Below, piece by piece: positions 308 through 31,228 of a DNA stretch of 32,929 bases. The position numbers and the translations under genes are program-made. Under the pieces are notes generated by a model. That model did no database searches and had not been told where the DNA came from. It saw nothing but the letters and a program-made list of their open reading frames with translations. How positions within the stretch are numbered: position 1 is the first letter of the stretch; each line of letters begins with the position of its first letter. Source of the stretch: a virus; IMG/VR virus record IMGVR_UViG_3300017613_001967, positions 1-32,929 of that record; one strand, given 5' to 3'.

Positions 308-324
308 AGTCTTTTTGAAGTTCC

Positions 325-410
325 TATTGTATTCTGTTAGGTATAGTAATAAATATTACTATACCTTGCGGTTGTATAATTAAATACACCGTTATATAGG
401 AGGATTAGAT
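325..410 (+). promoter_or_regulatory. Structured leader element, copy 1 (type A)
   Basis: First complete copy of the repeated leader. Its parts in order are: 5' arm ATTGTA (326-331); hairpin 1 with a perfect 12-bp stem (339-350/355-366) and AAAT loop; hairpin 2 (369-377/384-391, one bulged T) with loop AATTAA at 378-383; and the SD AGGAGGATT ending 4 nt before the ATG. The 5' arm can pair with TATAAT at 375-380, which belongs to the left strand and loop of hairpin 2, so arm pairing competes with hairpin 2 or forms a pseudoknot with its loop. Hairpin 1 has no following T-run, so it is not a classical terminator. Confidence 0.8.
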
Positions 411-830
411 ATGGAATCTATCAATCAAATGACACAGGAAGAAATCAACAGAATCAACGAAATGGTATGCTGTGGGAATTGTGGTGCTACTGCCGTGATT
501 CTCAAGTGGGATAACTTAAATCAACGGATGCTTTGTCCCGATTGCAAGTTTGTTGAAAAAGTAATGGACTTGCTGCCTCATGGATCTGGTATCAACGGAG
601 ATTGGGGTTTCGATTGGAAAAGAAATGGTTCTCTTCACCTGCATAATGGCTATCACTGTATGAATGAAAATGGCTATTATGATGGATGGGTAGACTTTAC
701 AGTCATACTTCATCCTAACGATAAAGAATATTTTCGGCTCCAATTCAATAGCAACAGGTACAAGGCTGAAAAGTACATGTTGAGAGAATACCTAACTGAT
801 ACCATCTATGACGCATTGGAAAAATTGTAG
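411..830 (+). CDS. Zinc-ribbon protein, function unknown
   Basis: 139 residues. An N-terminal zinc ribbon is visible as CGNC (residues 21-24) and CPDC (42-45), an 18-residue spacing typical of such ribbons. The remainder is rich in aromatic and acidic residues (DWGFDWKRNG, YYDGWVDF) and may form a small beta-rich domain. No membrane segment. The start lies 4 nt after the conserved leader SD. The TAG stop (828-830) sits inside the 5' arm of the next leader, so coding and leader sequence are fused. Family not recognised. Confidence 0.8.
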   Translation: MESINQMTQEEINRINEMVCCGNCGATAVILKWDNLNQRMLCPDCKFVEKVMDLLPHGSGINGDWGFDWKRNGSLHLHNGYHCMNENGYYDGWVDFTVILHPNDKEYFRLQFNSNRYKAEKYMLREYLTDTIYDALEKL

Positions 831-9790: not shown

Positions 9791-9799
9791 TAAAGAATC

Positions 9800-9842: not shown

Positions 9843-9886
9843 GGCCCTTTTTTGGTGAGAATTATAATGTAAAAAAATGTTATAAT
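9841..9886 (+). promoter_or_regulatory. Likely promoter(s) for the SLOG/helicase operon
   Basis: Two sigma-70-like options follow the terminator: TTGGCC (9841-9846), 16-bp spacer, TATAAT (9863-9868); and an extended -10, TGTTATAAT (9878-9886). Similar TGGTATAAT motifs occur at 18335-18343 and 27234-27242. The ATG of the next gene is 22 nt beyond the second -10. Confidence 0.6.
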
Positions 9887-9908
9887 TAATGTATAAGGAG
9901 CATACAAT

Positions 9909-10295: not shown

Positions 10296-10304
10296 GGAGG
10301 ATAC

Positions 10305-10607: not shown

Positions 10608-12009
10608 AATCCTCGATTCTATCCATTGTTACGCCAATAAGGAAGCCCGTAAGATTATAAAACACGCCTTGTCCTACAAAAAAGTCCACTGGCGACAAGG
10701 GCAATTCCAAAAGAAATCTAAAACTAATACTCAACACCTTATTTCTGGTCGTGACGGTAGTGGAGGCCATTTCTTAACTGGATTATTGTCTAAAGTTAAA
10801 AAATACTGCAAAGAACTAAACATCCAAATAGAAATAATAGGCTCACTTGAAAAATTAAGACCACAAGCCAAACCATCACTTAAAGGTATTAAATTCAGAC
10901 CAGATCAAGTTAAGGCACTCCAAAGAATCAAGCGACACCAATTTGGCCGGATCATTCATCCCACTGGCACAGGTAAAACAATTATAGAAATGGGTATAGT
11001 ATCCATGTTCCCAAATTGCTATATTCTTTTACTAGCTCATACTAGAGACTTGGCAAAACAACTTTCTGATGCAGCTGAGGAGTTTCTTCCTGAACACAAT
11101 ATTTATACACCTCAAGGGGGTGAACAAATAAATAATGCTATAAGTAATATGGCAGATCGTGCTAACCAAGGATACTATGACGGAATTCTTATAACCACAA
11201 TACAATCTTTTGCCAAACTTGACCCCAATCAATATATGCATTTATTTGATGTTACCATAGTAGATGAAAGCCACCATATTTCCAGTGAGAAAAGCCAGTA
11301 TGGTAAAGTCATGACTCATAACCTATCACCTCGCAGATATGGCTTTACCGCTACCTTACCCACAAAGGATGACCAACTGCTCTTCAATGAAGGTATCCTT
11401 GGCCCTGTAATTGCAAATTTATCTATAAAAGACGCCATTAAAAATAATCTTGTGGCTATACCCAAAATTAAATTGGTCAATGTTCCTTATGATCCCGAAC
11501 TAAATAAGCAATGTTCTAATCGTTATTTTAAATATGCCGAATTATGCATCGCCACTAACAAAAAAAGGAATGCTCTCATATGCTCAGAGGCCGCTGATGC
11601 CGTTAAAAATAAAAAACCCGTATTGGTTATTATTGAAAAAATAGAACATGGTAAATTGTTACAACAGAAAATGTTGAAGTCTCATAATTTAAAAGTACCA
11701 TTTGCAAGTGGTGTATCTTCCCAGGAAGAACGATTAAAATATAAGCAAGATTTAATTGGTGGTAAAATACTATGTGTTATAGTGTCTCGTATATGGATGG
11801 AAGGCATAAATATACAAAATTTAGAGGTTATAATCTATGCCGCAGCTATGAAAGAAAAGAAAAGGGTGATACAAGCAATGGGACGTGGATTAAGAACCTC
11901 CAAGGATAAAGATGAAATACTATTAATTGACTTCTTAGATCCTTACAAATATTTAAGTGAACACAGTATTTTAAGAATACAAACCTACAACGAAATGGGA
12001 TGGCTATAA
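10585..12009 (+). CDS. SF2 DNA helicase, UvsW-like
   Basis: 474 residues. Motif Q/I region: FRPDQVKAL then HPTGTGKT (Walker A, 125-132); motif II DESH (227-230); motif III FTATLP; motif VI QAMGRGLRT near residue 430. The N-terminal ~110 residues form an accessory domain. Layout and size match phage UvsW/Res-type SF2 helicases that remodel recombination intermediates, unwind R-loops and switch replication modes in T4. The SD GGAGG precedes ATG 10585. Followed at once by the methyltransferase. The exact substrate is inferred from the family. Confidence 0.88.
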   Translation: MNPKPTIEILDSIHCYANKEARKIIKHALSYKKVHWRQGQFQKKSKTNTQHLISGRDGSGGHFLTGLLSKVKKYCKELNIQIEIIGSLEKLRPQAKPSLKGIKFRPDQVKALQRIKRHQFGRIIHPTGTGKTIIEMGIVSMFPNCYILLLAHTRDLAKQLSDAAEEFLPEHNIYTPQGGEQINNAISNMADRANQGYYDGILITTIQSFAKLDPNQYMHLFDVTIVDESHHISSEKSQYGKVMTHNLSPRRYGFTATLPTKDDQLLFNEGILGPVIANLSIKDAIKNNLVAIPKIKLVNVPYDPELNKQCSNRYFKYAELCIATNKKRNALICSEAADAVKNKKPVLVIIEKIEHGKLLQQKMLKSHNLKVPFASGVSSQEERLKYKQDLIGGKILCVIVSRIWMEGINIQNLEVIIYAAAMKEKKRVIQAMGRGLRTSKDKDEILLIDFLDPYKYLSEHSILRIQTYNEMGWL

Positions 12010-13370
12010 AAATTATGAAACTAAAAAAGAGAAAATCTAAACCTTACTTTGAAAATCAATTCGGCCAGGTCTATCTCGGAAACGTCCTACCTATATTAAA
12101 AACCCTACCTAGTAATTCAATTCATATGTGTGTTACCTCACCTCCATATTGGGGTCTGCGAGACTATGGAAACCCACCTCAGATATGGGATGAGCCATCC
12201 TTTGGTTATTGCAAACAAATAATTAATAATAGAGAAACATCTGTAAAAGGTAAACATGAATGGGAAGATAAAAATCCTATAAAAACACGTAAAGATCCAA
12301 AAACAGGAATTGCCATTTCTACAGATGAAAATAGAAAGAAAACAGTTGTTGCTACAAATCAATTTTGCAAACATTGTAACGCATGGAAAGGTGATTTAGG
12401 ATCGGAGCCAACACCAGATCTATTCATTCAACACCTAACACAAATCTTTCGTGAAGTGAGAAGAGTATTAAGAGATGATGGTATCCTCTTTCTTAATATC
12501 GGAGATACCTATACAGGGACTGGTGGATCACTAAGAATTAATTTTGGCAAGATCAAACCACTAACTACCTACCCATCAGCAACTAAAATTCCAGAAGGAT
12601 TAAAGCACAATGAACTAATTGGCATACCTTGGAAATTAGCATTCGCTCTCCAAAAAGACGGATGGAGACTAAGACAAGACATTATATGGAGTAAAAGATC
12701 AGTCACTCCAGAAAGTTGCACTAATAGATGTACTAAATCCCATGAATACATTTTTATACTCGCCAAATCTGCAAAATACTTCTATGATAATTTTGCCGTA
12801 AGACAACCAACTATAGATAAACAATCTTTTCCTCCAAAAGAAAACACACCATATATCGCAGGTGGCAATAAGCGATCTGTATGGACGATCGACACAGACA
12901 AAAGAAACAACACAGACAAAAGAGATAATAAAACACACTTTGCTGTTTTCCCAGAAAAACTAGTAAGGACATGTATCTCACTAGGAAGTTCTGAAAAAGG
13001 CTGTTGTCCTCAATGTGGCAAACCTTGGGAAAGACATATCAAAAAGCACCGAATGAAAAATTACATTTTTAAAATTACCAACACAGAGTGGAAACCTGCT
13101 TGTGAATGCAAAAGTGATGATACTTATGGGCAAACCTATCAGAATCCAGGAGGTGAAGACGACACACTTCCCTTTAACCCTATCCCATGCACAGTTCTTG
13201 AACCATTCTTAGGATCAGGCACAACCTTCTCAGTTGCCTCAATACTTAACAGAAGATGTATTGGGATAGACGTCTCTAAAACCTTTCTAGATAATGATGC
13301 CATCCCCCATATAGAAAAAGAAGCCAGAAAACAACGGCAAGCCATTAAAAGTAAAAAATGGTTCAAATAA
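12000..13370 (+). CDS. Site-specific DNA methyltransferase (N4-cytosine or N6-adenine)
   Basis: 456 residues. Catalytic TSPPYWGLRDY lies near residue 46 and the SAM-binding motif EPFLGSGTT near 402, the order typical of beta-class amino-methyltransferases; SPPY is compatible with either N4C or N6A. Two zinc-ribbon-like pairs are present (CKHCN ~124; CPQCGKPW ~338 with a later CEC), as is usual in this large phage/bacterial subfamily. No restriction endonuclease is adjacent, so it is probably an orphan that protects or marks phage DNA. Start uncertain: ATG 12000 overlaps the helicase stop, while ATG 12015 gives MKLKKRKSKP; neither has a clear SD. Confidence 0.88.
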   Translation: MAIKIMKLKKRKSKPYFENQFGQVYLGNVLPILKTLPSNSIHMCVTSPPYWGLRDYGNPPQIWDEPSFGYCKQIINNRETSVKGKHEWEDKNPIKTRKDPKTGIAISTDENRKKTVVATNQFCKHCNAWKGDLGSEPTPDLFIQHLTQIFREVRRVLRDDGILFLNIGDTYTGTGGSLRINFGKIKPLTTYPSATKIPEGLKHNELIGIPWKLAFALQKDGWRLRQDIIWSKRSVTPESCTNRCTKSHEYIFILAKSAKYFYDNFAVRQPTIDKQSFPPKENTPYIAGGNKRSVWTIDTDKRNNTDKRDNKTHFAVFPEKLVRTCISLGSSEKGCCPQCGKPWERHIKKHRMKNYIFKITNTEWKPACECKSDDTYGQTYQNPGGEDDTLPFNPIPCTVLEPFLGSGTTFSVASILNRRCIGIDVSKTFLDNDAIPHIEKEARKQRQAIKSKKWFK

Positions 13371-13445
13371 TCAATTGCGTTAATACGTTATAATCATTAT
13401 TAATGCACTTTATTTAATGTTTAATGACCATAAAAATGTAATGAC

Positions 13446-14357
13446 ATGAATATCATCAACTTTTTGGAAAATGCAAATATTGAAGTGATTAAAAGGGGTA
13501 AGAATGTATCTGCTGGATGGATTAGCATCACTTGCCCTTTTTGTGGTGATACGTCTAACCATTTCGGTATACAGTTAAGTGACCTCCGCTGTAACTGTTG
13601 GAAATGTGGTAGTCACACCATAATAGATTTAATTACAACTATTGAAAGCTGTTCATTCAAAAGAGCAAAATCAATAGTTAAAGAAATTCGTGATTCAGAA
13701 CCACCTGTTTATTTACAACGACGAGAACAAATACGAGGTGTTTATCAATACAGAAAAGTCCACTTACCTCCAGTAGTATCTCCCCTTCCTAAAAGATACC
13801 GTGAATACCTCCAAGACAGAGGTTTTAATCCAACTCATCTTGAAAGAAAATATGGTCTGCTTGCTTGTTTAAACAGAACCAAATATAAATTTAGAATTGT
13901 AATTCCAATATTCTTTATGAACAAACTTGTCAGTTTTACCACTCGCACTATTTTTAATGAAATAGACCCACCATATTTACATCCTACATATAAAGAGGTT
14001 CTTTATACCCCAAAGCAAACTGTCTATAATTATGATTCATTTCCTACTGGTACTGATCTTATTGTTATGGAAGGCCCGTCTGATGTTTGGCGTTGGGGCA
14101 ATGGAGCTGTATCTACAAACGGTATTAACTATTCTATAGACCAAATTATCACACTACGGTCTAAACCAATTCGCCGCCTATTCTTATTTTTCGACAATGA
14201 ACTCACTGCTCAAGCAAGAGCAAGAGAGTTAATATTATTAATAAAACCTGCTGCCAAACACGTAGAACAAATAAAGCCTGATCATAAAAATGATCCTGGT
14301 GAGATGACCCATTCAGAAATCATGTACATCAAACAACATCTTAAATTTAATAAATAA
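13446..14357 (+). CDS. DnaG-type DNA primase
   Basis: 303 residues. The N-terminal zinc-binding domain has Cys30-x2-Cys33 and Cys49-x-Cys51-x2-Cys54. Linker to a Toprim core with MEGPSDVW (Glu209) and LFFDNE near residue 250, the metal-binding acidic residues of DnaG. It is short compared with bacterial DnaG (~600 aa) and lacks the C-terminal helicase-binding domain, as is common for phage primases. It synthesises RNA primers for the DnaB-like helicase/Pol III replisome encoded downstream. No good SD precedes ATG 13446; the 75-nt spacer before it is very AT-rich and contains four TAATG words. Confidence 0.88.
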   Translation: MNIINFLENANIEVIKRGKNVSAGWISITCPFCGDTSNHFGIQLSDLRCNCWKCGSHTIIDLITTIESCSFKRAKSIVKEIRDSEPPVYLQRREQIRGVYQYRKVHLPPVVSPLPKRYREYLQDRGFNPTHLERKYGLLACLNRTKYKFRIVIPIFFMNKLVSFTTRTIFNEIDPPYLHPTYKEVLYTPKQTVYNYDSFPTGTDLIVMEGPSDVWRWGNGAVSTNGINYSIDQIITLRSKPIRRLFLFFDNELTAQARARELILLIKPAAKHVEQIKPDHKNDPGEMTHSEIMYIKQHLKFNK

Positions 14358-14370
14358 GGAGGTGGTTTAA

Positions 14371-14730
14371 GTGAAATTAAATAGGAGAAAATTTGATCCT
14401 AGTGAATATGAAATAATAAAAGAATTTACTCCTGAAAATCCTGAAGTAGATTCTGGTGGCATATTCATACCCAATCATATACTACACAACCCAAAACTAA
14501 ACTTTACTCAATCAATATTGCTTGCCTTAATCTACTTTGTTGAAGACCCTGATTGTAATGGTTTTTGTTACGCTGCTAACTCTTACTTCTCAAAAATACT
14601 CGATATTAATAATAATTCTATTAAAAAAAATCTATCCCTTTTAGTCAAAGATGGATTTTTAATAAAAACAATTCACAATAATACAAGATTTCTAAAAACC
14701 ATAGACTTTATGGATGGAGGTGAGTATTAA
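14371..14730 (+). CDS. Winged-helix replication protein (short paralog)
   Basis: 119 residues, GTG start at 14371 selected by a strong SD (AAGGAGGTGG, 7-nt spacing). The segment SGGIFIPNHI ... FTQSILLALIYFVED ... CYAANSYFSKIL ... NNNSIKKNLSLLVKDGFLIK is a winged-helix domain like those of phage replisome organisers. The next gene repeats the same domain (GLWIPKKDLF ... CYATNSYFSEIF ... ISNNIRFLITEGYIEV), so the pair arose by tandem duplication; this copy lacks the C-terminal half. Its N-terminus, MKLNRRK, is a basic tag. Confidence 0.8.
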   Translation: MKLNRRKFDPSEYEIIKEFTPENPEVDSGGIFIPNHILHNPKLNFTQSILLALIYFVEDPDCNGFCYAANSYFSKILDINNNSIKKNLSLLVKDGFLIKTIHNNTRFLKTIDFMDGGEY

Positions 14731-15866
14731 TGAAAATCCAAAAAAGGTTTACAAGTAAAAACCCACAAAGTAAGTTTGAAGGTCTATGGATTCCAAAGAA
14801 AGATCTCTTCAATCAAGAACTAAGTTTCCTTCAATCAGGACTTCTTTCATCAATCAAATACCTGCAAAAAATTTCACATGTGAAATTATGTTATGCTACC
14901 AATTCTTACTTTAGTGAAATTTTCAAAGTCACTGAAAAGGCTATAAGTAATAACATCCGTTTTTTGATAACCGAAGGTTATATTGAGGTTGTAAAATTCA
15001 ATGGTCGGGTAAGGTTCTTAAAAACAACAGATAAGAAGCCAAATCAGCATGGAACTAATTTCCATGCTGACGGGAAAAAAGGTCAAACAGATAATACAGT
15101 ATATAATAAACTTATTTCTAACGAAATAAGTAACGGTTTTTTTCAAAAACCGTCTATTATTCCTAATAATAAGATAAAGAAAAAAAGGAGATTGATAAAG
15201 TTACCAGATCCCAAAATAAAATTCATTATTGATTATTGGAATAATATTGGCAAACCATTTTCTAAAATAATAAAGAAAGAACCTGTTAAAAAGTTATTAA
15301 TACCATTATTGAAAAAGAATGATTATAGAACTATTTGTGAAGTATTTGATAAGGCATATAAATATATGACAGATCCTTATTTTTTCTTTGCATCTAAAAA
15401 AACATATCGTTGTGTTGAATTCTTTAAGCCTAACTCATACAGCTACATTGGTAAATGGATAGATGGAAACAAAATGAATAATTGGTTCGATATATTCTTT
15501 AAAAAGTCTCACCGGTGGCTAGAACAAAACGTATTGAGATTGCCAAAAGATACTATTGGATATAATGAAGACTTCTATAATGAAATATGCCGTATACTAT
15601 CAATTGCTCCGCAGGATAGAGATGATCAACTTGCCATTAAAAGAACATGTATTCGGATTAGTGATTGGCTAGGTGTTAATAATACAGACACTCTACAATG
15701 GCCGGTATTAAATGACTTTGAATATTTTATTAGAGATAATTATCCTGATACAAGAAAGATACAACCCTATTGGTTCTCAGGTAGAGCTTTTTGGAATAAG
15801 CAGTTTGCAGACTATCTTGTCCAGACTGGAAGATTTTCTCACATCTCAGAAATTAAAAGGATCTAA
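14730..15866 (+). CDS. Replisome organiser / helicase-loader-like protein
   Basis: 378 residues. Residues 1-100 are a winged helix paralogous to the preceding gene. A polar linker (~105-160, including KKKRRLIKLPD) follows, and residues ~165-260 match the phage replication pattern 'I-I-D-Y-W-N...K...I-x-x-L-L...Y-x-x-x-F-F-A-S-K-K-T'. This is typical of proteins that bind origin DNA and load the DnaB helicase. Overlaps the previous gene by 1 nt (TAATG). It sits between primase and DnaB-like helicase, consistent with loader function; the assignment to origin recognition is inference. Confidence 0.75.
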   Translation: MKIQKRFTSKNPQSKFEGLWIPKKDLFNQELSFLQSGLLSSIKYLQKISHVKLCYATNSYFSEIFKVTEKAISNNIRFLITEGYIEVVKFNGRVRFLKTTDKKPNQHGTNFHADGKKGQTDNTVYNKLISNEISNGFFQKPSIIPNNKIKKKRRLIKLPDPKIKFIIDYWNNIGKPFSKIIKKEPVKKLLIPLLKKNDYRTICEVFDKAYKYMTDPYFFFASKKTYRCVEFFKPNSYSYIGKWIDGNKMNNWFDIFFKKSHRWLEQNVLRLPKDTIGYNEDFYNEICRILSIAPQDRDDQLAIKRTCIRISDWLGVNNTDTLQWPVLNDFEYFIRDNYPDTRKIQPYWFSGRAFWNKQFADYLVQTGRFSHISEIKRI

Positions 15867-16480
15867 TGAAATCAATATCATTCTTCAAAAACAAACCAAC
15901 AAGACCTATAATAACATCACCACTCCAATTTGAAATAGTCTATATTAATATTCCATTTGCTATTCTATTAAATAAAGAATGGCATTCAAGACTTCCTATT
16001 TTTAAATCACCATACATAACTAAAAAGCATATTTCCTTTGGAGCTAGATATAAATCTTGTTGGTATGCATCTGCTATATGGACACCTCCAATTTCAAGGC
16101 TTTTCAATAATAGAGGATTCTTAGAATTAAGAAGAATGGCTATTGCACCTGATGCACCTAAAAATACTGCTTCAAGAATGCTGTCTATTATGTGTAAAAA
16201 TATTAAAGCTCGTTTTCCTGATATATGGAAATTAATATCTTACCAGGATACAGATGTACACTTAGGCACTATTTATAAAGCAAGTGGATGGATTCTAGCA
16301 GCTAAAAGTCACAAATCCAATTGGCATAAAGGCCAATGGAGTAAAGGTAGAAAAATAAGATCAAGTGACTATCAAGCTCCTGGTGTTAAAATCAGATGGG
16401 AAAGAGATATAAGGAAAGAACCTAAAAAAAATAAAATAAGAAGGAAAATACTTCTAAAAAGAAGGATTAGCAATCTATGA
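15866..16480 (+). CDS. Mom-like GNAT-fold protein, possible DNA modification enzyme
   Basis: 204 residues. WYASAIWTPP (~65-75), ELRRMAIAPDAPKNTASRML (~87-106) and SYQDTDVHLGTIYKASGW (~125-142) form the pattern I associate with Mu Mom-like GNAT proteins; Mom converts adenine to a methylcarbamoyl derivative and protects DNA from restriction. The basic tail (KIRRKILLKRRISNL) would suit DNA contact. It starts within the stop of the replication protein (TAATG) and overlaps the helicase start (ATGA), so it is co-translated with the replisome. The chemistry in this phage is unproven. Confidence 0.68.
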   Translation: MKSISFFKNKPTRPIITSPLQFEIVYINIPFAILLNKEWHSRLPIFKSPYITKKHISFGARYKSCWYASAIWTPPISRLFNNRGFLELRRMAIAPDAPKNTASRMLSIMCKNIKARFPDIWKLISYQDTDVHLGTIYKASGWILAAKSHKSNWHKGQWSKGRKIRSSDYQAPGVKIRWERDIRKEPKKNKIRRKILLKRRISNL

Positions 16481-18165
16481 GATCTCCTATTAAGATCATC
16501 AAAACTACTGAACATGAAGATGAAAAAACTATTCTTGCTTTCATGGTCATGCATGACGATGTTACAAAGGCAGTCCACACATTCTGGAAAACCAAACAAT
16601 TAAAACTAAAACACATATCTACTGCTTATAGAAGACAATTCCGCAATATTATAAAATTCTATGAAAAATACAATGAGGCACCCCGTAGAGCTATAAAGTT
16701 CATTCATGATGGAGAAAAAGCAATTCTTAGGCACAATAAGGATGAACTAAAATTAAATAGCCAGGTATTAAAAACTATTGCTGAAGAATACTCTGCAAAT
16801 CGTGAAGGATATCTTGTAAATAGCCAATATATCATTGAGGAACTTATACCTCGTTTTATAAGAATAAGAAAAACTGCTGAGATTAATGAAAAATTAAGTA
16901 TAGCAGTTGAAAATGGACTGTCTGATGAAGCTGAGCGATTACTATTAGAATATGATAAGGTTCAAACCGAGCAAAAAGATCCTACCTTTGGATTCACGAC
17001 CCCATTAACACTTGATTACCAACTAGATATGCTAGCTCGTTTTGATGATGAAGGTACTAAAGAAGTCTACAGATTCCCTGATGCACTAGGTGCCTTAATT
17101 GGGCCATTAAAAAAAGGTTGGCTAGTCGCTATTAGTGGTGCTACCAAGGCCTCCAAAAGCTATTTCTTAGGTCAAATAGCTTTTGATGCTGTATTAAATC
17201 AAGGGAAAAAAGTAATGTATCTATGTCCTGATATGAGTGAGGAAGACATGAATGAAGAACGCATTGTATCATATATAACAGATAGAGCCTCAAGCAAAGA
17301 ACTTGCTGGCAATACATATCTACCTGAATTTGATTGTATAAAAAACCAGACAGGAGAATGTAAAGATAGGCCAAAAGGCAGAGTGCCACTATTAAAAAAA
17401 CCTGTTAGTCAAAATCCTAATAGTGTAAAAGAGCAAATTCTTGCTGACTCAATACAATGCTTAAATTGGAAAACATGCACTAAATGTAGATTTGAAAACC
17501 CAAAAAGATATAGTGCTGCCATATACTTTAGAAAAAAGAGAATAAAAAGTTTCAAGATAACTGAAAGGCAAAACAGGTTACAAAGAAGAAAATTCAAACC
17601 TTTGAAATATAAGCATGGACAAAACTTCAAGATAAAATACTTCCCCAAATATCAAGCTACCATTGAAGATTGTTTTGACGTTATACATGGCTATATTGAA
17701 ACTAATGACTGGCAACCTGACATTATTATATTTGATTACATCGACATTTTAAACCCTGGTCGTGGTGAACAGAAAAAGTCATTTAATGATTATAGAGATT
17801 ATGATCATATGTGGAAGACTGCTAGTAGGCTTGCCCAGGAAACTGACACACTAGTTTTGACAGCCGATCAATCAACTAAAGCAGGACGCACCGCAAGGCT
17901 ATTAGATGAAACATCTACATCACAGGCCAGCATGAAAGATCATCACCTGAATGTCAAAATAGGTATTGGCAAAATCAAGGAAGAAACCCAAAATAATATA
18001 GCTCGTGTAAACGTATTATTTCACAGACATCGACCATTCAATAGAAATTTAGAAGTCTTAGTTACTCAAAATCTCACCTGTGCGAATGCATTTGTTGACT
18101 CTGCCTTTTGGTTCGATAAAACATCGCCACCGTATAATATCCAAATCCCTCAAAATGAGGTTTAA
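16477..18165 (+). CDS. DnaB-like replicative DNA helicase
   Basis: 562 residues. The core begins near residue 175 (GFTTPLTLDYQLD); Walker A is GATKASKS (221-228), with Ser where the canonical loop has Gly before Lys; the strand 'KVMYLCPDMSEEDMNERIV'-like segment follows, and Walker B is IIIFDYID (Asp420). An insertion between these holds six cysteines (CIKNQTGEC; CLNWKTCTKC) that may bind zinc. The C-terminal 'LTADQST' and RHRPFN regions match helicase motifs 3 and 4. Unwinds DNA at the fork. Overlaps the Mom-like gene by 4 nt. The altered P-loop and inserted knuckle are unusual. Confidence 0.82.
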   Translation: MRSPIKIIKTTEHEDEKTILAFMVMHDDVTKAVHTFWKTKQLKLKHISTAYRRQFRNIIKFYEKYNEAPRRAIKFIHDGEKAILRHNKDELKLNSQVLKTIAEEYSANREGYLVNSQYIIEELIPRFIRIRKTAEINEKLSIAVENGLSDEAERLLLEYDKVQTEQKDPTFGFTTPLTLDYQLDMLARFDDEGTKEVYRFPDALGALIGPLKKGWLVAISGATKASKSYFLGQIAFDAVLNQGKKVMYLCPDMSEEDMNEERIVSYITDRASSKELAGNTYLPEFDCIKNQTGECKDRPKGRVPLLKKPVSQNPNSVKEQILADSIQCLNWKTCTKCRFENPKRYSAAIYFRKKRIKSFKITERQNRLQRRKFKPLKYKHGQNFKIKYFPKYQATIEDCFDVIHGYIETNDWQPDIIIFDYIDILNPGRGEQKKSFNDYRDYDHMWKTASRLAQETDTLVLTADQSTKAGRTARLLDETSTSQASMKDHHLNVKIGIGKIKEETQNNIARVNVLFHRHRPFNRNLEVLVTQNLTCANAFVDSAFWFDKTSPPYNIQIPQNEV

Positions 18166-18223
18166 AATATTTACATCTTCATATTTATTGTTATTTAAAT
18201 CATAAGATCATATAATCTAACTT

Positions 18224-18292
18224 GTTTTAAATTGTAAGATTAACATATTTAAAACCAAACTTTGTAAACCGTTGATATTGGCACGTTTACAA
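18224..18292. promoter_or_regulatory. Two phased inverted repeats (operator or origin-like sites)
   Basis: The AT-rich 263-nt gap holds IR1 GTTTTAAAT (18224-18232)/ATTTAAAAC (18247-18255) and IR2 TTGTAAAC (18262-18269)/GTTTACAA (18285-18292). Half-sites are 23 bp apart start to start in both. The half-sites resemble the GTTTAAAC palindromes beyond the next gene (19325-19364). They lie upstream of a -10 element, which suits repressor or activator binding; an origin function is also possible. Confidence 0.6.
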
Positions 18293-18334
18293 CATGCATA
18301 TAATTAAAAAAAATATCGTATATGTTTATAAAAA

Positions 18335-18343
18335 TGGTATAAT
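18335..18343 (+). promoter_or_regulatory. Extended -10 promoter
   Basis: TGGTATAAT, a TGn-TATAAT extended -10, lies 85 nt upstream of the chosen start of the next gene; no good -35 is seen. The resulting mRNA would have a leader of roughly 80 nt containing a short in-frame N-terminal extension (MNECSCMVEC...) that lacks its own SD. Confidence 0.55.
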
Positions 18344-18428
18344 GTAAATGAATGAGTGTAGTTGCATGGTTGAATGTTCAACCATTGCAGCTAAAAATAA
18401 ACCCTATATTATATGGAGGAAATTTATT

Positions 18429-19208
18429 ATGGCTTTAAGCAAAGAAAAACAATTACTGAAATGGGTCAAAAAGTTAAACCGTGCAAAAGTGGCTGAGGCC
18501 ATCGACACAGACCAGGATTATGACGACCTCAAAGAAGAATTTATGGACACCCTTGAGGAACTCGATGATAGTGGCAAGATTGATGATGTCGATGAAAATG
18601 TCGTCAAATTCTTCAATGCCCTTGTAGAAGAAGATGAGGGTGAGGAAGAAGGAGATGAGGATGACGAGGATGACGAGGATGACGAGGATGACGAGGAAGA
18701 AGAGGATGACGAGGAAGAAGAAGAGGATGACGAGGAAGAAGAAGAGGATGAGGAAGACGAATTCGCTGAAATGAGCCGTCTGGAAATGAAAAAATTCATC
18801 AAGGCCTCCAAAAACAAAAAGGTTAAGGCCATCAAGGTGTTTAAAAGCACTAGTGATGATGATCTCCGTGAAGCTATTCGTGAGGCGTCTGGCACCAAAA
18901 AGGCTGCTCCTGCTAAAAAAGCTACCACCAAGAAAGCCACCGCAAAGAAAACCACCACCGCAAAAAAGAAGGGTTCATCTGAAGATGGGACTACCCTCCA
19001 TGATCTAGTGGCAAAATCCCTGACCAAACACAAAGGAAAATCAATTACCTTTCTCAAAATCAGGGATGAAGTGGTAGCAGAGCGCAAAAAGCATGGATTG
19101 TCTGCAACACCTAGCATGGCTCGTCTGTATGTCAAAATCATCTGTTCCTCACTAATAACTCTTGGATTTGCTGCTGGTGATGAAACTTCCATCAAGTTGA
19201 AAAAGTAG
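18429..19208 (+). CDS. Acidic / histone-H1-like chimeric DNA-binding protein
   Basis: 259 residues. Order: helical N-terminus (1-66), an almost pure Asp/Glu tract (67-113), a SAP-like helix pair (114-155, ending DDDLREAIREASG), a Lys/Ala/Thr tail like histone H1 (157-181) and a C-terminal winged-helix-like domain (186-259). The acidic and basic stretches are like those of nucleosome assembly factors and may chaperone DNA-binding proteins. ATG 18429 has the SD TGGAGG 10 nt upstream, so I prefer it over the ATG at 18348. Codons are richer in G/C than in neighbours. Ends in a terminator and is flanked by operator-like arrays. Role inferred. Confidence 0.78.
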   Translation: MALSKEKQLLKWVKKLNRAKVAEAIDTDQDYDDLKEEFMDTLEELDDSGKIDDVDENVVKFFNALVEEDEGEEEGDEDDEDDEDDEDDEEEEDDEEEEEDDEEEEEDEEDEFAEMSRLEMKKFIKASKNKKVKAIKVFKSTSDDDLREAIREASGTKKAAPAKKATTKKATAKKTTTAKKKGSSEDGTTLHDLVAKSLTKHKGKSITFLKIRDEVVAERKKHGLSATPSMARLYVKIICSSLITLGFAAGDETSIKLKK

Positions 19209-23718: not shown

Positions 23719-23891
23719 TGATTGACACAGAAGAAAAATTAAATCAATTAGGCGAATACTGTTATAAATTTTATAAACTAGGATATAAACGTGCTATTAA
23801 AGATTTAAATAACACTAGTCATATGTTTGACTTTGAGAAACATGATTCATTTATGAAATACTTCAAAGAACTATCAAAGGGATTGTTATGA
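23700..23891 (+). CDS. Small protein of unknown function
   Basis: 63 residues. I place the start at ATG 23700 since AAAGGAG lies 7 nt upstream; a longer reading from 23634 would lie inside the preceding gene without an SD. The sequence ('VIDTEEKLNQLGEYCYKFYK ... FMKYFKELSKGLL') is helical and aromatic. Its stop overlaps the Pol III start (ATGA), so it is coupled to the polymerase. Confidence 0.65.
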   Translation: MENKRIVIDTEEKLNQLGEYCYKFYKLGYKRAIKDLNNTSHMFDFEKHDSFMKYFKELSKGLL

Positions 23892-26800
23892 ATAATTCAG
23901 ACTTCTGCCATCTACACAACCATACAGAATTCAGCTTTCTCGACGGATTTGGTACACCTGAAAACTATGCCAAAAAAGCAGTAAGACTTGGGTTTAAATA
24001 TCTTGCTTGTACAGATCATGGAAGTATAGATGGACTAATCAAATTTCAGGTGGCCTGTGAAAAACATAACATCATACCTATTCTCGGTTGTGAGAGTTAC
24101 ATTACTCCTGAGGTAAACAAAGAAAGAAAAAATGGTCATATAATACTACTTGTTAAAAATCGTACTGGGTTTAGGAACCTCACCAAAATGCTATCTTTTG
24201 CTAATAGTGAAGGTTTCTATTACAAACCAAGAATTACCTATGACATATTATTGAATCATACTCGAGGATTAGTTATATCTACAGCTTGTGTGCAAAGCTT
24301 CATCAATATGCCTGGAGGTCAAGATTTGTTTCAAAACTTATATGACCTCATTGGTAATGACCTGTACTGTGAGATACAGGCTAACAAATTAAATATCCAA
24401 AAAGTTCATAATAATAAGATAATGTCATTAGCAGAATACTTCAAACTAAAAGTAATTGCAACCAACGATTCTCACTATATTAATGCTTCGGATTGGAAAG
24501 CCCAGGAAATGTTACTGGCCATTCAAAGAAAAGCGTTGTGGGATGACCCCAAACGCTTTAAATTCACTATTAAAGGGCTACATTTAAAAAGTGTCAACCA
24601 AATGAAAAAAGCCATGCAGTTGTACAACTGCTGGCACCCTAAATATCTATCTAATACTATTGATGTAGCTGAAAAATGTTGTAATTTCAAAATAAAAAAG
24701 AGGAAGATCAAATTACCAAAAGTTGGAGATTTAAGTATAAAACAAGAATCACAAGTTTTATGGTTTGAGTGTAAGAAGGGTTTTCAGCAAAGATTCGGTG
24801 AACAAATGGAAGACGGCTCAATATATGACAAGCGTTTTCAAAAGGAGTTCGACCTCATTAAGAAAAAGAACTTCATTCGCTATTTCCTTATAGTATATGA
24901 ATTAGTAACATGGTGTAAAGAAAATGAAATTCTTATTGGGCCTAGAGGTTCTGTTTGTAGTAGCCTTATTGCCTTTCTATTAGGTATAACAGGAATTGAT
25001 CCAATAAAACATGATTTGTTGTTTAGCCGCTTTATTAGTGAAGATAGGATTGACTATCCTGATATTGACATTGACTTTGAAAACAGTAAACGTCATTTGG
25101 TAAAGGAGCATCTTGAGGAAGTTTATGGCATAGGTCGTATTGCAAATGTTAGTAGTTTTAGTAGATTAAAGTCAAGAGCTGCTGTTAGTGATATTGCAAG
25201 GACTTTTGGCATCCCACCAGGTGAGGTAAATAGATTCACAAAATTGATAGACTATAAAACAGAAGATGGGCTAACTGATGCTATTGAGCAAAATGAAGAA
25301 GGTAGGGAGTTCAAAAGCAGACATCCACAAGTTGTCAGGCTAGCTAGAAAACTTGAAGGACAGGTACGAAATCGCTCTCAACATGCTGCTGCTATTATTA
25401 TATCCCAAAAACCTTTAAAAAGTTCTGGTCAATGTGTAATTATAGAAAAGGAAGATGTTACTCTAACAAACTGGGAAAAAGATGATGCTGAATACATGGG
25501 GTTGATGAAACTTGATGCACTTGGTCTTAAATTTTTAAGCATACTATCTGAAGCAAGAAGACTTGTCAAAGAAAATTACAATACTGAAATTGATTTTGAA
25601 AAGATACCTCTTGATGATAAAAAAATATTTAAGTTTCTTAGTGATCCAAATAATCTCTTAGGAATATTTCAACTTTCTGGATATGCTAATCGTGCTCAAA
25701 TTACACAAACAGGAATTAAAGAATTTAATGATATAGCTATAACCACCTCACTTGCTCGCCCTGGCCCTTTGGCGTCAGGTATGACTCATGAGTATAACAC
25801 ACGGAAAAGAGTTGGTAGATGGACACTAGGACACCCCATATATGAAAAAATAACAAAGGATACATTAGGGGTCGTCGTGTTTCAGGAACAAGTAATGAAG
25901 ATAATTAGTGAGATGGCAGGGCTACCTGAAAGCACTGCTGATAAAATAAGAAAAGTGATTGGTAAAAAAAGAGATGTTAAAGAGTTTGAACCATATAGAA
26001 AGCAATTTATATCTGGTTGTCGAAAAACCAAAACATTTTCTAGGAGTGAGGCAAAAGAATTTTGGAATGGCTTATTAGAATGGAGTTCTTATGGATTTGG
26101 AAAAGGTCACGCTGTGGGTTATTCAGTAGTTGCATATTGGTGTGCCTATCTTAAATACTATTATCCCACTGAATTTATTTGTGCATCATTAACTTTTGAG
26201 CCAGACAACAAAACAAAAGAAACAGTTGAAGAAGCATACAAGCTTGGCCTTTCAATTATACTTCCAAGAATTAGTAGTCCCTATACCCACCTCACAGACT
26301 GGGTAGCTAAAGACAAAAAATTATATATTCCATATACCAAAATTAAAGGTATAGGTAAATCTAAAGCAAAACAAATTACTAATGTTAGTAATGCTAAAAC
26401 CAACTTCTATCAAACTGAACGACAAGTAACACCCCATAAAGGAGCTTTGGGGAACCTCCTTACAGAGATACAAGCATACAGGTCAGAAGATAAGATTCAA
26501 GAAGTAACCCCTGAAATGACAAAATACTTTGATTTTAGAATAGTATCTAATCCTAAAAACCAGTATGCAAACCTATACAACTTATTTAACCGCAAGCTAA
26601 CTAGCAGAAAACTTGACCCCGCTTTATGTGGTGATTTAAAAGTGTTGAAGTTAATAAATAAAAAAATAGTTAAGGTAAGAAGGTTCAAAGGATACGATAA
26701 AGACCTCTCAATGTGTTTAGCATGTGATTTGATAAACGAATGTACTGCACCTGTGCCTCCATCACAAGGTAGATACAATATAATGATTATTGGACAAGAT

Positions 26801-27241
26801 CCCGGTTATGATGAAGACAAAGATGGTATCGGGTTTATTGGTGCATCAGGAAAACAACTATGGTCAAACATATCTTATAATAGGTCACTATTTCACATAA
26901 CTAATATCAATAAATGCTACCCTTCAAAATCAAGAAAATCAAGTAACAAGCAAATAAAACTATGTTCATCCTGGCTTAAGCAGGAATTAGAATCAGTAAA
27001 GCCAATCCTTATACTTGCCCTTGGCAATTCTCCACTATATTACTTTACAGGAAAAACTGGTGGTATAACAGAACTCAGTGGATCAACTACATGGAATGAG
27101 AGATATAGTTGTTGGATTTGTTGGTCTATGCATCCGGCATCTATACTCCACAATGCTAATAATAAACCAGCTTATATAAGAGGCATTAAGAACTTTAAAA
27201 AGACCTTTGCCATGCTTAAAACAATGAAAAAAATGGTATAA
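23888..27241 (+). CDS. DNA polymerase III alpha fused to family-4-type uracil-DNA glycosylase domain
   Basis: 1117 residues. PHP domain at the N-terminus (CHLHNHTEF, TDHGSIDG); palm with GPRGSVCSSL (~355) and the catalytic aspartates PDIDIDFE (Asp394, Asp396), plus MKLDALGLK (Asp543); helix-hairpin-helix IKGIGKSKA (~818). Residues ~940-1117 form a glycosylase domain: Cys943, Cys946, Cys1010 and Cys1026 with the C-x2-C...C-x15-C spacing of [4Fe-4S] family-4 UDGs, GQDPGYDED (969-977), and HPAS (1082). The usual OB-fold/tau-binding region of DnaE is missing. Replicates phage DNA with the clamp; the fused domain may remove or sense uracil. Start overlaps the upstream stop. Confidence 0.9.
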   Translation: MNNSDFCHLHNHTEFSFLDGFGTPENYAKKAVRLGFKYLACTDHGSIDGLIKFQVACEKHNIIPILGCESYITPEVNKERKNGHIILLVKNRTGFRNLTKMLSFANSEGFYYKPRITYDILLNHTRGLVISTACVQSFINMPGGQDLFQNLYDLIGNDLYCEIQANKLNIQKVHNNKIMSLAEYFKLKVIATNDSHYINASDWKAQEMLLAIQRKALWDDPKRFKFTIKGLHLKSVNQMKKAMQLYNCWHPKYLSNTIDVAEKCCNFKIKKRKIKLPKVGDLSIKQESQVLWFECKKGFQQRFGEQMEDGSIYDKRFQKEFDLIKKKNFIRYFLIVYELVTWCKENEILIGPRGSVCSSLIAFLLGITGIDPIKHDLLFSRFISEDRIDYPDIDIDFENSKRHLVKEHLEEVYGIGRIANVSSFSRLKSRAAVSDIARTFGIPPGEVNRFTKLIDYKTEDGLTDAIEQNEEGREFKSRHPQVVRLARKLEGQVRNRSQHAAAIIISQKPLKSSGQCVIIEKEDVTLTNWEKDDAEYMGLMKLDALGLKFLSILSEARRLVKENYNTEIDFEKIPLDDKKIFKFLSDPNNLLGIFQLSGYANRAQITQTGIKEFNDIAITTSLARPGPLASGMTHEYNTRKRVGRWTLGHPIYEKITKDTLGVVVFQEQVMKIISEMAGLPESTADKIRKVIGKKRDVKEFEPYRKQFISGCRKTKTFSRSEAKEFWNGLLEWSSYGFGKGHAVGYSVVAYWCAYLKYYYPTEFICASLTFEPDNKTKETVEEAYKLGLSIILPRISSPYTHLTDWVAKDKKLYIPYTKIKGIGKSKAKQITNVSNAKTNFYQTERQVTPHKGALGNLLTEIQAYRSEDKIQEVTPEMTKYFDFRIVSNPKNQYANLYNLFNRKLTSRKLDPALCGDLKVLKLINKKIVKVRRFKGYDKDLSMCLACDLINECTAPVPPSQGRYNIMIIGQDPGYDEDKDGIGFIGASGKQLWSNISYNRSLFHITNINKCYPSKSRKSSNKQIKLCSSWLKQELESVKPILILALGNSPLYYFTGKTGGITELSGSTTWNERYSCWICWSMHPASILHNANNKPAYIRGIKNFKKTFAMLKTMKKMV

Positions 27242-27279: not shown

Positions 27280-27492
27280 ATGGATCAAATACTTACATTT
27301 AAATTTCTAATGCTTGCCTTTATTGCAATTATATTTATATATATTGCAATAAGACTAGTAGGATATGCTTTTGCACGTTCATGGTTTGATGTGAAACTAA
27401 ACCATGAACTCAAACAAAATGGCTTTCATAAAACTAAACAACCAGACAAACAAAAAGGAGGAAAAGAAAATGGCCAGAAGAAAATCAACTAA
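27280..27492 (+). CDS. Small single-span membrane protein
   Basis: 70 residues. Hydrophobic residues 8-31 (FLMLAFIAIIFIYIAIRLVG) form one membrane helix; the C-terminal half is polar and lysine-rich (HKTKQPDKQKGGKENGQKK). SD is weak (ACGGA). The end overlaps the SSB start by 23 nt and contains the SSB ribosome site AAAAAGGAGG. Not recognised. Confidence 0.62.
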   Translation: MDQILTFKFLMLAFIAIIFIYIAIRLVGYAFARSWFDVKLNHELKQNGFHKTKQPDKQKGGKENGQKKIN

Positions 27493-28639
27493 GAAGCGTA
27501 GGTTTCAGGCAGATGAACTGATGACTCGTATGCGCGCGAGTAAGGCGTCTATGCGAGGATCAAAAACGATTATTGACATGGAAAAGGTAGGTGACACTCA
27601 AGTATGGCAGCCTAAAAATGGAGATCACACTATTGATGTTATTCCATACTTTGCAGGTGATAATGATCCAAATGTTAAAAAAGGTGAGACTACTTATCTT
27701 TTTCCATACTCTCAACATCCCCGAATTGGAGCCGCTGAGGAACAAGTTCTATGCCTTGCCGCTACATTTGGTGATCCTTGCCCCATTTGTGAAGATCGTA
27801 TGAAATTAAGGGAACAAGGCCAAGATAAGGAAGTTTGGAAACCCCTATTTCCAAAAGATAGGGCAATATACAATATCGTATGTTATGATCAAGGTGAAGA
27901 AAAGAAAGGTGTTCAGATATGGGATGTTGCAAGATATTATTTTGAAAATCCTGTATTGAAACTTGCTATGAGAAAGGGCAGAGGTGGAAAATCAAAAACA
28001 GGCACCAATTTTCTCGACCCTAAAAATGGTAAAAGTGTTGTTTTTGAAATTGAACCAGCAAAATCAAAAGATGACTTCCCAAAATATGAAGGTGTTGCCT
28101 TTGAAGAAAGAGACTATGAAATTGAAGATGATATACTAGATCAAGCAGTTGCACTTGATCAAATTGTAAAAGTATTATCATACGATGAGATCTCGGAACT
28201 ATATTTTGGTGGCAAAGTTGAACCCAAAAGTGAAAGGAGAAAATCCAAAGGTTCTGATGAAGATGAAGATGAAGATGAAGAATTATCTACTGATGAACTT
28301 ATGGAACAACTTGAGGAATGTGAAGATCTGGATGACCTTGATGAGTTTATTGACGAAAATGATTTTGATGTTGAGATTACCCAAAAGTCCCGCTTCCCTA
28401 AAGTTAAACGGCAACTAAAAAAACTCATTATAGAAATGGAAATGGATGAAGATGAGGAGAATGAAGATGATGAAGAAGAAGAGGAGCAGGATTATACCTG
28501 GGGTCGAATTAAGAAAATGACAAAAAGAAAACTCAAGATAGTTATTGATGAAGAAGACTTAGATGTTGATCCTGACGAAGCCGAAGATACTGATGAGTTA
28601 AGAGAAATGGTAGCTGATGAACTGGACATTAAATATTAA
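27470..28639 (+). CDS. Single-stranded DNA-binding protein, gp32-like
   Basis: 389 residues. Basic N-terminus (ARRKSTKKRR), then a core with His83, Cys95, Cys104 and Cys107, the His-Cys-x8-Cys-x2-Cys zinc site that parallels T4 gp32, and FPKDRAIYNIVCYD. Residues ~262-300 and 325-345 are acidic tails; two SAP-like helical repeats follow (DELMEQLEE ~275-325; WGRIKKMTKRKLKIVIDEED ~344-389). ATG 27470 is fixed by AAAAAGGAGGAAAAG; upstream starts lie within the preceding gene. Coats ssDNA at the fork. The C-terminal modules resemble part of the protein at 18429-19208. Confidence 0.85.
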   Translation: MARRKSTKKRRFQADELMTRMRASKASMRGSKTIIDMEKVGDTQVWQPKNGDHTIDVIPYFAGDNDPNVKKGETTYLFPYSQHPRIGAAEEQVLCLAATFGDPCPICEDRMKLREQGQDKEVWKPLFPKDRAIYNIVCYDQGEEKKGVQIWDVARYYFENPVLKLAMRKGRGGKSKTGTNFLDPKNGKSVVFEIEPAKSKDDFPKYEGVAFEERDYEIEDDILDQAVALDQIVKVLSYDEISELYFGGKVEPKSERRKSKGSDEDEDEDEELSTDELMEQLEECEDLDDLDEFIDENDFDVEITQKSRFPKVKRQLKKLIIEMEMDEDEENEDDEEEEEQDYTWGRIKKMTKRKLKIVIDEEDLDVDPDEAEDTDELREMVADELDIKY

Positions 28640-28646
28640 CTAGTTT

Positions 28647-28881
28647 GGTTAAGTTTGGGAGCCTCCTTTCCCTCATCCCCCCAGATGAGGTTTTAATCCC
28701 AACCTAACCATGAGGAAAGGGGTGTTAAAGACTAATCCTCCGACTCACCCCTTTCCTCAAAACTTTATAATTTGGCTTGTGGAGACAAGAGGGTGGAATC
28801 AAAATCCATACGGCAAGTAAGAGCTTCGATATGGTATAGCCGGATTGACATGAGGGCGGTGCCGGTGAGTCTCCACGAGTC
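28647..28881 (+). ncRNA. Structured non-coding RNA candidate with anti-RBS loops
   Basis: The 278-nt gap between the SSB and the next gene carries three folded domains. D1: GGTTA/GTTTGGGA pairs with TCCCAAC/CTAACC (28647-28660/28697-28709) around hairpin CCTCAT/ATGAGG (28671-28676/28685-28690), leaving GCCTCCTTTC (28661-28670) unpaired. D2: 14-bp stem 28711-28724/28746-28759 with a 21-nt loop containing CTAATCCTCC (28732-28741). D3: 13-bp stem (28774-28786/28869-28881, core GTGGAGAC/GTCTCCAC) enclosing ~80 nt. D1's CCTTTCCCTCAT can also pair with D2's left arm. I match no known RNA family. Whether it is a separate RNA or an mRNA region is not known. Confidence 0.6.
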
Positions 28882-28917
28882 ATTATTCAAACCTTAAAAA
28901 CTTAGGATATTAAAATT

Positions 28918-29358: not shown

Positions 29359-29468
29359 AAAAATGGTTTTATGAATATAATAATGCATCATTTAAAGATG
29401 CCAATATACAACGACCAAAATCTGTCTATTCTAAATGGCTTAAAGTATATAATGAGGAACAAAAATGA
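29355..29468 (+). CDS. 37-residue basic peptide
   Basis: A short ORF linked to its neighbours by ATGA overlaps at both ends (29355-29358 and 29465-29468), the strongest argument that it is translated. Aromatic and lysine-rich (KKWFYEYNNASFKDAN; SVYSKWLKVYNEEQK), no membrane span. Function unknown. Confidence 0.58.
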   Translation: MKKWFYEYNNASFKDANIQRPKSVYSKWLKVYNEEQK

Positions 29469-29911
29469 TAATTTCATTTACAGATAAATATTCATTCCTT
29501 TCTAATTTTTATAATTCACCTATCATATGGTCGAATGAAAAATATCCTACTGTAGAACATGCATTTCAAGCAGCTAAATGTCTATGTTTCTACAATAATG
29601 ATTCAGTCCAAATCAGACTGGCCTCATCACCTGGAAAGGCTAAAAGACTTGGCCGTAAATGTGATTTACGGACTGACTGGAATCTAGTGAAGATCACTTT
29701 TATGACTACCTTTATTCAATTAAAATTCAAAGACAATACCCTACTAGCTAAAAAACTTCGTCAAACAAAACCTCATTTTATTTGTGAAGGCAACTATTGG
29801 CATGACAACTTTTGGGGTGATTGTATCTGTCCTAAATGCAATATCAGCCAAGGCCATAATCATTTAGGACAGATATTAATGAAGACTAGAGATCTACTAA
29901 TAGGAATATGA
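29465..29911 (+). CDS. NADAR (YbiA-like, DUF1768) family protein
   Basis: 148 residues. FLSNFYNSPI (11-20), KYPTVEHAFQAAK with Glu31, SSPGKAKRLGRK, KFKDNTLLAKKLRQT, and EGNYWHDNFWGD ... LGQILMKTR match the NADAR/YbiA family. Members are N-glycosidases acting on riboflavin intermediates or on ADP-ribosylated nucleobases, and some reverse DarT-type guanine ADP-ribosylation of DNA. A four-residue CICPKC pair inserted after FWGD is unusual and may bind metal. In a phage this fits counter-defence against DNA ADP-ribosylation or NAD-based immunity; substrate not shown. SD GAGGA. Confidence 0.85.
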   Translation: MIISFTDKYSFLSNFYNSPIIWSNEKYPTVEHAFQAAKCLCFYNNDSVQIRLASSPGKAKRLGRKCDLRTDWNLVKITFMTTFIQLKFKDNTLLAKKLRQTKPHFICEGNYWHDNFWGDCICPKCNISQGHNHLGQILMKTRDLLIGI

Positions 29912-30162
29912 TGATTGATTCAGAATTTTGTGAACGATGCAAACGGCCATACACAATAAAAGGTGCCTTATACTGTGATTCATGCTTAAAAGATATGGGA
30001 TTCTGTGGACGTTTCATAGAGATACCACCACAAATAAAATTCTTAGCTGAATCAATTATTTCAAATAAAAGAGTCCTGTTTTTACATTCTAGGAAATATG
30101 GTAAAACTTATGCTTTAAAATTGGTTAAGGAATACTATGAAAATAAAAAGAAGAAAACCTAA
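29908..30162 (+). CDS. Zinc ribbon plus degenerate P-loop-like protein
   Basis: 84 residues. CERC (8-11) and CDSC (23-26) make a zinc ribbon. The second half, VLFLHSRKYGKTYALKLVKE, resembles a P-loop beginning (GxxxxGKT-like: SRKYGKT) but is too short for an ATPase domain, so it may bind nucleotide or be a truncated remnant of one. ATG 29908 overlaps the NADAR stop; the 3' end overlaps the recombinase start by 26 nt. Not recognised as a named family. Confidence 0.6.
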   Translation: MMIDSEFCERCKRPYTIKGALYCDSCLKDMGFCGRFIEIPPQIKFLAESIISNKRVLFLHSRKYGKTYALKLVKEYYENKKKKT

Positions 30163-31228
30163 AAAGGTCACTGTCAAACGAAGGAAGGTAACCACCAAAC
30201 AAAAATCTACCCCAACTGTTGAGTTTATTAGTAGTGGTAGTACCCCTCTCAATTTATCTTTATCAGGCAAAGGGCCAAAAGGTGGATGGGCTAGAGCAAG
30301 AATTGGAAACATAGTAGGTGGTAGATCTGCTGGTAAAACTGCTGTTGCTCTAGAGTGTGCCTTTTGGTATTATAAAAACATTAATAAAATTAAGAGTGTT
30401 ATATTCCCACCTGTAGATGAATTTACTATCGTCTATAATAATGCAGAAGCCTCTATGGATTTTGATATACCTAAAATGTATGGCCCAAAATTTAATGACA
30501 AAGTACATTGGGTTAGATCACCAAATGTGGAACACTTTGGCCGTGACTATTTTAGACATGTAGATAATCTTGAACCAGGTCATAGTTTATTATATATCCT
30601 TGATACCCTTGACTTTCTAAGGTCTAAAGATTCCTTAGAGCGTTTTGCTGAAAGTGTTAAAAAAGATGATTCAGAAAAAGGATCATATGATCTCAGCAAA
30701 CAAAAATATCTATCAAGTTTCTTTGCAGTTACAAGTAAATTCCTAGATGAAAATAAAAAGGATGCTACACTTATGATCCTTAGTCAAATACGAGATAAAA
30801 TAGGGGTTGTTTTTGGCAAGAAACAAATGCGGACTGGTGGTCGCGCCTTTGACCATGCAGTACATCAAGAATTATGGATTAAAGAAAAACAAAAACTAAG
30901 AGCTACTAAAAAGGGTGAGGAAAGGGTATATGGTATTGATGTTGCTTGCCGAGTTGAAAAGAACAAGTGTGCTAAACCTTTTAGGGAGTGCAATTTTCAA
31001 ATACTATATGATTATGGTATTGATAATTTAAGTTCAATGATCAATTATTTATGGGGTAAGAAACAAATTAATTTTGATGGTCAAACCTTTAAAACTAAAA
31101 AACCGTTCATCAAATATATAGAGGACAATAATTATGAACGTCTTATTGAGGAGAAAACAGAACAAAAGTGGCATGAGATCGAACACGCTTTTGAGGCGGA
31201 GGTCGAATCCAGAAATAGACGCTGGTAA
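30137..31228 (+). CDS. RecA/UvsX-like recombinase
   Basis: 363 residues. Basic N-terminal tag (MKIKRRKPKKVTVKRRK), then IGNIVGGRSAGKTAVALE with Walker A GGRSAGKT (61-68), ILDTLDFL as Walker B, and LMILSQIRDKIGVVFGKK followed by RTGGRAFDHA, the pattern of the L2 region and following strand of phage RecA-type proteins. It would pair homologous strands in recombination-dependent replication together with the UvsW-like helicase and the gp32-like SSB. SD AAGGAA. The end overlaps the exonuclease start by 95 nt. Confidence 0.86.
   Translation: MKIKRRKPKKVTVKRRKVTTKQKSTPTVEFISSGSTPLNLSLSGKGPKGGWARARIGNIVGGRSAGKTAVALECAFWYYKNINKIKSVIFPPVDEFTIVYNNAEASMDFDIPKMYGPKFNDKVHWVRSPNVEHFGRDYFRHVDNLEPGHSLLYILDTLDFLRSKDSLERFAESVKKDDSEKGSYDLSKQKYLSSFFAVTSKFLDENKKDATLMILSQIRDKIGVVFGKKQMRTGGRAFDHAVHQELWIKEKQKLRATKKGEERVYGIDVACRVEKNKCAKPFRECNFQILYDYGIDNLSSMINYLWGKKQINFDGQTFKTKKPFIKYIEDNNYERLIEEKTEQKWHEIEHAFEAEVESRNRRW

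Follow-up and report, generated by a model that had tools for sequence, protein, structure and literature searches.

A hairpin loop complementary to repeated early-gene SD sequences lies downstream of a phage SSB gene and may form part of an antisense element

The window analyzed here is the whole 32,929-nt stretch (positions 1–32,929, one strand) of IMG/VR virus record IMGVR_UViG_3300017613_001967, from a phage that encodes a T4-like replication set (gp32-like SSB, UvsX, clamp loader, helicases and a DnaE-type polymerase). The SSB gene, whose true start is probably 27470, is followed by a structured non-coding gap, a NADAR-domain gene and uvsX, and at 0.3–8 kb a repeated structured leader precedes early genes (Table 1). 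Elsewhere in this region, the DnaE-type polymerase (23888–27241) appears to have a uracil-DNA-glycosylase-like domain at its C terminus (a fragment at 2–784 of contig L037, resembling that polymerase end, matches Pfam UDG), and a perfect 15-bp inverted repeat with a 22-nt gap falls at 29824–29875, within the 3′-terminal part of the NADAR gene. Neither the window nor contig L023 contains a tRNA or tmRNA.

Table 1. Coordinates of the features discussed, in the window (strand given) and in relatives carrying hammerhead arrays.
Feature	Coordinates	Strand	Description
Leader copy 1	318..413	+	Structured leader, 3′ end TATATAGGAGGATTAGATATG; one of 13 copies
Other 12 leader copies	end at ATG of 915, 1320, 1786, 2233, 2755, 3115, 3815, 4328, 4860, 5235, 6914, 7951	+	
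Leader SD GGAGGATTAG	399..408, also 1308-1317, 4316-4325, 7939-7948	+	Exact complement of the H2 loop
gp32-like SSB gene	27404..28639	+	Pfam gp32 2.8e-9; SD GGAGGAAAAG at 27457
Structured non-coding gap	28640..28917	+	278 nt, 3′ of the gp32-like SSB gene; predicted domains H1-H2-H3
H1 hairpin	28646..28710	+	Unpaired CCTCCTTT (28662-28669) and C-run (ATCCCCCC) kept in L037
H2 hairpin	28711..28759	+	14-bp stem, 21-nt loop
H2 loop anti-SD core CTAATCCTCC	28732..28741	+	Within the 13-nt core AGACTAATCCTCC (28729-28741) common to L037
H3 domain	28773..28882	+	About 110 nt, long-range closing stem TGTGGAGAC/GTCTCCACGA; structured RNA
NADAR-domain gene	29465..29911	+	Synteny shared with L037, which has one 3′ of SSB and the hairpins
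UvsX/RecA-like recombinase	30137..31228	+	Core gene that follows SSB in the group
Hammerhead arrays in relatives	G001 (L225:10935-18035), G002 (L230), G003 (L222), G008 (L214), G013 (L248), G014 (L249, L250)		
Array-head non-coding regions	G001 9548-10934, G002 49950-51375, G003 32530-33571, G008 14328-16234		

On the sense strand the gap folds at −92.3 kcal/mol (z −4.06; 0/200 shuffles as stable). Its second hairpin, H2, has arms of 14 nt each (28711–28724 and 28746–28759) that are 100% complementary at 21-nt spacing, with CTAATCCTCC at 28732–28741 in the loop; a preliminary description of this DNA had reported a 14-bp hairpin with an anti-SD loop at these positions, and both parts are confirmed. 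The CTAATCCTCC bases are mostly unpaired in prediction (0.79–1.0 each, apart from two Cs, 0.38 and 0.57). A search for the same H2 stem elsewhere found none. Across the window no Rfam family matched at gathering threshold, and none related appeared in the gap at E<=5. Promoter-like matches around the element are at background level, and no promoter or terminator delimits a discrete transcript. With an inverted-repeat cluster adjoining replication genes, the hairpins might be a DNA-level element (a replication origin or packaging site) formed in single-stranded DNA near SSB–uvsX; yet the folding excess is smaller on the antisense strand (z −2.08), the locus shows no GC-skew switch, and in the relative described below the loop is conserved and the stem is not, so that we hold this explanation to be very improbable.

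The 13 leader copies (0.3–8 kb) constitute a well supported structured RNA, with compensatory changes in 14 of 21 predicted pairs and 3′ ends of the form TATATAGGAGGATTA..ATG. The leader RNA (318–7953) has hairpins that covary and may form a pseudoknot, TAATTGTA with TACAATTA around an AATTAA loop. It has no Rfam match; a model built from it returned strong matches in the window only, and a search of IMG/VR with the leader pattern gave 10 matches, none of them a leader. The window leader is possibly an unknown ribozyme or switch.

The loop segment CTAATCCTCC is the exact reverse complement of the leader SD segment GGAGGATTAG, which is found without mismatch at 399, 1308, 4316 and 7939 (leader copies 1, 3, 9, and 13), with one mismatch at 903, 1774, 2221, 4848, 5223, and 6641, and with two mismatches at 2743, 3103, 3803, 8881, and 9783; this window search with 0–2 mismatches agrees with the earlier tally of exact, 9-of-10 and 8-of-10 matches. 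The sole exact minus-strand GGAGGATTAG site in the window is 28732–28741. By a rough, post hoc hand estimate from base composition, this exact 10-mer would be expected by chance at ~1e-4 in the 278-nt gap and at ~0.01 anywhere on the window sense strand. CCTCC occurs at just two sites in the sense-strand non-coding sequence of the window, 28662 (in H1) and 28737 (in H2), both within the element.

The H2 loop prefers leader RBSs over the other RBSs of the window. Its mean predicted pairing is −14.8 kcal/mol with leader RBSs and −7.2 at 31 other window starts, which sets the leader genes apart, whereas a typical 16S-like tail discriminates little (−10.3 kcal/mol on leader RBSs vs −8.5 on other RBSs). 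Judging from these modeled energies, the H2 loop could compete with the ribosome at leader genes. The leader SDs are only 0.2–0.9 unpaired in predicted folds, which counts against such an action in trans. Instead, the loop might act solely in cis, pairing with the SSB SD (autogenous control) or with that of the gene that follows in the same mRNA, the leader match being a by-product of a shared SD. T4 gp32 is autoregulated, the element lies in the SSB transcript, and SSB SDs are GGAGG-type in both the window (GGAGGAAAAG, −11.2 kcal/mol) and L037 (AGGAGGATAAAA, 8 nt complementary). However, the window SSB SD pairs over 6 contiguous nt only, more weakly than the leader mean of −14.8; the following gene (28918) gives −5.3; and the CTAAT part of the loop is accounted for by the leaders, not by SSB. 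We therefore consider purely cis action unlikely.

One SSB relative (L037; 47% identity) carries two hairpins directly after SSB, and the gene order SSB–H1–H2–...–NADAR is common to it and the window. Its H2, GCACCCGGTAGG-CCAGACTAATCCTCCTA-CCTACCGGGTGC, holds in its loop AGACTAATCCTCC, identical to the window, on an unrelated stem (GCACCCGGTAGG/CCTACCGGGTGC vs TGAGGAAAGGGGTG/CACCCCTTTCCTCA in the window). In alignment, the two also agree fully in their H1 loop ATCCCCC and their ACCAT linker. A shared stretch of at least 13 nt arises in 2/3000 dinucleotide shuffles, and because L037 keeps the 13-nt loop core on an unrelated stem, chance is an unlikely source of the loop match, as far as this conservation between two sequences (window and L037) can be read. 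The exact loop pattern was found in 22 IMG/VR stretches, among which L037 alone has it in a strong hairpin; the rest are apparently chance occurrences. Taken together with its flank, the L037 loop can pair with as many as 12 nt of the window leader (TAGGAGGATTAG; mean −16.9), more than the window’s own loop does. The L037 contig (5.5 kb) has no leaders on it, its own targets being out of view. It also carries (2307–4215) a TROVE (Ro60-like) gene and, after it, several Y-RNA-like elements, of which two are tRNA-like (weak YrlA match); this is where H3 lies in the window.

The conserved AGACTAATCCTCC exceeds the leader complementarity by 3 nt, and something else may thus also select the loop. 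One candidate is a protein-binding site or tertiary contact (e.g., for a TROVE/Ro60-like protein as in L037), with the SD complementarity incidental. This would accommodate the length of the conserved core, the conservation of the H1 C-run and linker, and the TROVE protein encoded directly downstream in L037. It fits poorly with the ten conserved bases being the exact complement of a repeated leader SD and with the recurrence of independent anti-SD segments in leader-array relatives (below), and we judge it improbable.

Gaps after SSB were also compared across other SSB relatives. In G003 (L041/L136; 40% SSB identity) a 13-bp hairpin follows SSB with AAATCCTCC in its loop, and the leaders of that phage are mostly GGAGGATTTA. 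CCTCC is present in 11 of 43 non-redundant SSB-downstream gaps vs 4.0 expected (0/500 shuffles), some of these being terminator stems. An ordinary SSB–uvsX stem-loop (for RNA stability, as an RNase barrier or as a weak terminator), matching the leaders through chance and a generic CCTCC, would suit the many relatives whose SSB–uvsX gaps hold hairpins, terminators among them, that have unrelated loops, and the post hoc nature of the first observation. It is at odds with the 13-nt loop core kept on the replaced L037 stem and with the CCTCC excess, and the sequence downstream of H2 (AAAACTTTATAATTT) lacks the U-run of an intrinsic terminator; a terminator scan, which accepts loops of 3–8 only, did not report H2 (21-nt loop) as terminator-like. 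On balance this explanation appears quite unlikely.

Several further observations concern these searches and gaps. A UvsX query by exact patterns found no relatives, and an SSB profile search of GTDB contigs found five distant ones that were not informative. A 17-bp hairpin with CTAATCCCCC (G011/L138) was not counted, lying 3′ of exo rather than SSB in a phage that shows no leader array. An intron remnant was rejected: the L023 pol and uvsX inserts are in-frame and Rfam shows no intron. These inserts (11503–12320, 13057–13445, and 16884–18220) fall in polymerase and UvsX, and that in UvsX reads as an intein-like ORF. L025 has several structured non-coding modules (CATGGCGGC...GCCATGA) after SSB at 17860–18700, one of them tRNA-like, and in L008 (3640–3840) a long insert separates tRNA-like ends (GTCCCGTGGTGG...GGGTTCGACTCCCGCCGGGAC) immediately 3′ of SSB.

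A second body of evidence comes from six relatives (G001, G002, G003, G008, G013, G014) with 4–14 type-II hammerheads (RF02276) per phage, mostly a few tens of nt 5′ of early-gene SDs; some of the genes are homologous to window leader genes. The window itself (G000) has 0 RF02276 matches, its leaders occupying the place of the relatives’ hammerheads. All six hammerhead-array relatives, with GGAG-type SDs, carry a non-coding array-head segment bearing an anti-SD T[TC]CTCCTCCTT. In the four measured (G001, G002, G003, and G008), these regions are 1–2 kb, have no Rfam match at gathering threshold, and possibly represent a long phage RNA ending near the anti-SD. The four array-head regions first compared share a single 11-mer, TCCTCCTCCTT, which is also exact in G013; G014 has the variant TTCTCCTCCTT. 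In place of GGAGGATT, G014 leaders are mostly GGAGA-type (five GGAGAA), in agreement with the TTCTCC of its RNA; a paired change of leader and RNA is suggested by these sequences. The window begins at its leader array, so that its array-head region falls outside view. From these comparisons, a leader SD plus an anti-SD RNA is likely a group-wide theme.

The preliminary description had counted relatives that keep the leader SD but have an unrelated loop sequence as evidence against its model, and co-variation of loop and SD as evidence for it; the first check came out mixed. The hairpin downstream of SSB is absent in the close relatives G002 (22-nt gap) and G001 (98-nt gap), and is also missing in G008, G013, and G014, but these phages, which keep a GGAG-type leader SD, carry the array-head anti-SD instead. 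Across own-vs-other duplex energies in seven phages, the true pairings did not beat permuted ones (868/5040 as good, 0.17), and co-variation is not significant overall, although the window RNA, alone among the seven, fits its own leaders best and the paired change in G014 is suggestive.

The model first put forward, in which a phage RNA binds the RBSs of leader-tagged genes, thus survives in part. The loop kept without its stem in L037, the leader-specific pairing and the relatives’ array-head anti-SD segments—which, like the hairpin and its complementarity, were computed directly—favor it, and the failure to find a discrete-RNA signal does not. We propose, at about an even chance of being right, that the gap holds a 3′-UTR-type antisense element repressing leader-tagged early genes in trans as the replication operon comes on. 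Specifically, H1–H2 would act as antisense RNA encoded in the 3′ UTR of the SSB mRNA, whether retained there or processed out, and its anti-SD loop would pair in trans with leader SDs; we infer repression rather than activation, as well as the timing of transcription and the processing of the element. This would provide a feedback early-to-middle switch for ~13 genes at once. More tentatively, and with rather less than even confidence, the phage lineage may possess a purely RNA-based regulon, in which structured early-gene leaders with a stereotyped SD (built on a type II hammerhead ribozyme or, as the window has it, on a different covarying RNA) are paired with a dedicated anti-SD RNA for early-to-middle shut-off.

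If true, a phage RNA matched to one SD that recurs ahead of ~13 genes would let a whole gene set be switched compactly at translation, with no protein regulator needed, and the link to hammerhead-leader arrays places those ribozymes in a regulatory context that can be tested. Phage antisense RNAs known so far usually regulate a single gene. What would be new is the multi-gene leader regulon and, in relatives, its hammerhead setting; a search of open-licence literature found no description of such a leader regulon, which is weak evidence of novelty.

Among known systems, the c4 antisense RNA of phages P1/P7, in which complements of the RBS region likely lie in RNA loops, blocks translation of the phage ant mRNA (PMC12197685). 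H2 likewise presents, in a phage-encoded RNA, an unpaired loop complementary to the RBS region of phage mRNA, but its candidate targets are ~13 repeated leaders rather than ant mRNA, it is located after SSB, and it has no Rfam match. In the cellular RNAIII/sX13/CyaR-like class, a C-rich or anti-SD motif sits in an exposed hairpin loop, as it does in H2, where it is also kept in L037. Staphylococcus aureus RNAIII and the UCCC-loop sRNAs use C-rich hairpin loops to base-pair to the G-rich SD/RBS motifs that many mRNAs have (PMC2837412), and Xanthomonas sX13 is a C-rich loop sRNA whose loop 3 is UCCCCCU (PMC3771888), a motif also contained in the L037 H1 loop; these are cellular sRNAs with proven transcripts and targets, whereas the present case is computational and no sequence homology to them was found. 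Escherichia coli CyaR, a host sRNA with no Rfam match to the window, also directs an anti-SD hairpin loop at the SDs of certain mRNAs (PMC2837412). Type II hammerhead ribozymes (Rfam RF02276; PMC3088659) resemble the window leaders in that, in relatives, they form structured leaders of homologous early genes just 5′ of the same SD type, although the window leaders have a different covarying structure. A member of no known RNA family, the element is best read, by analogy, as c4/RNAIII/CyaR-like in mechanism.
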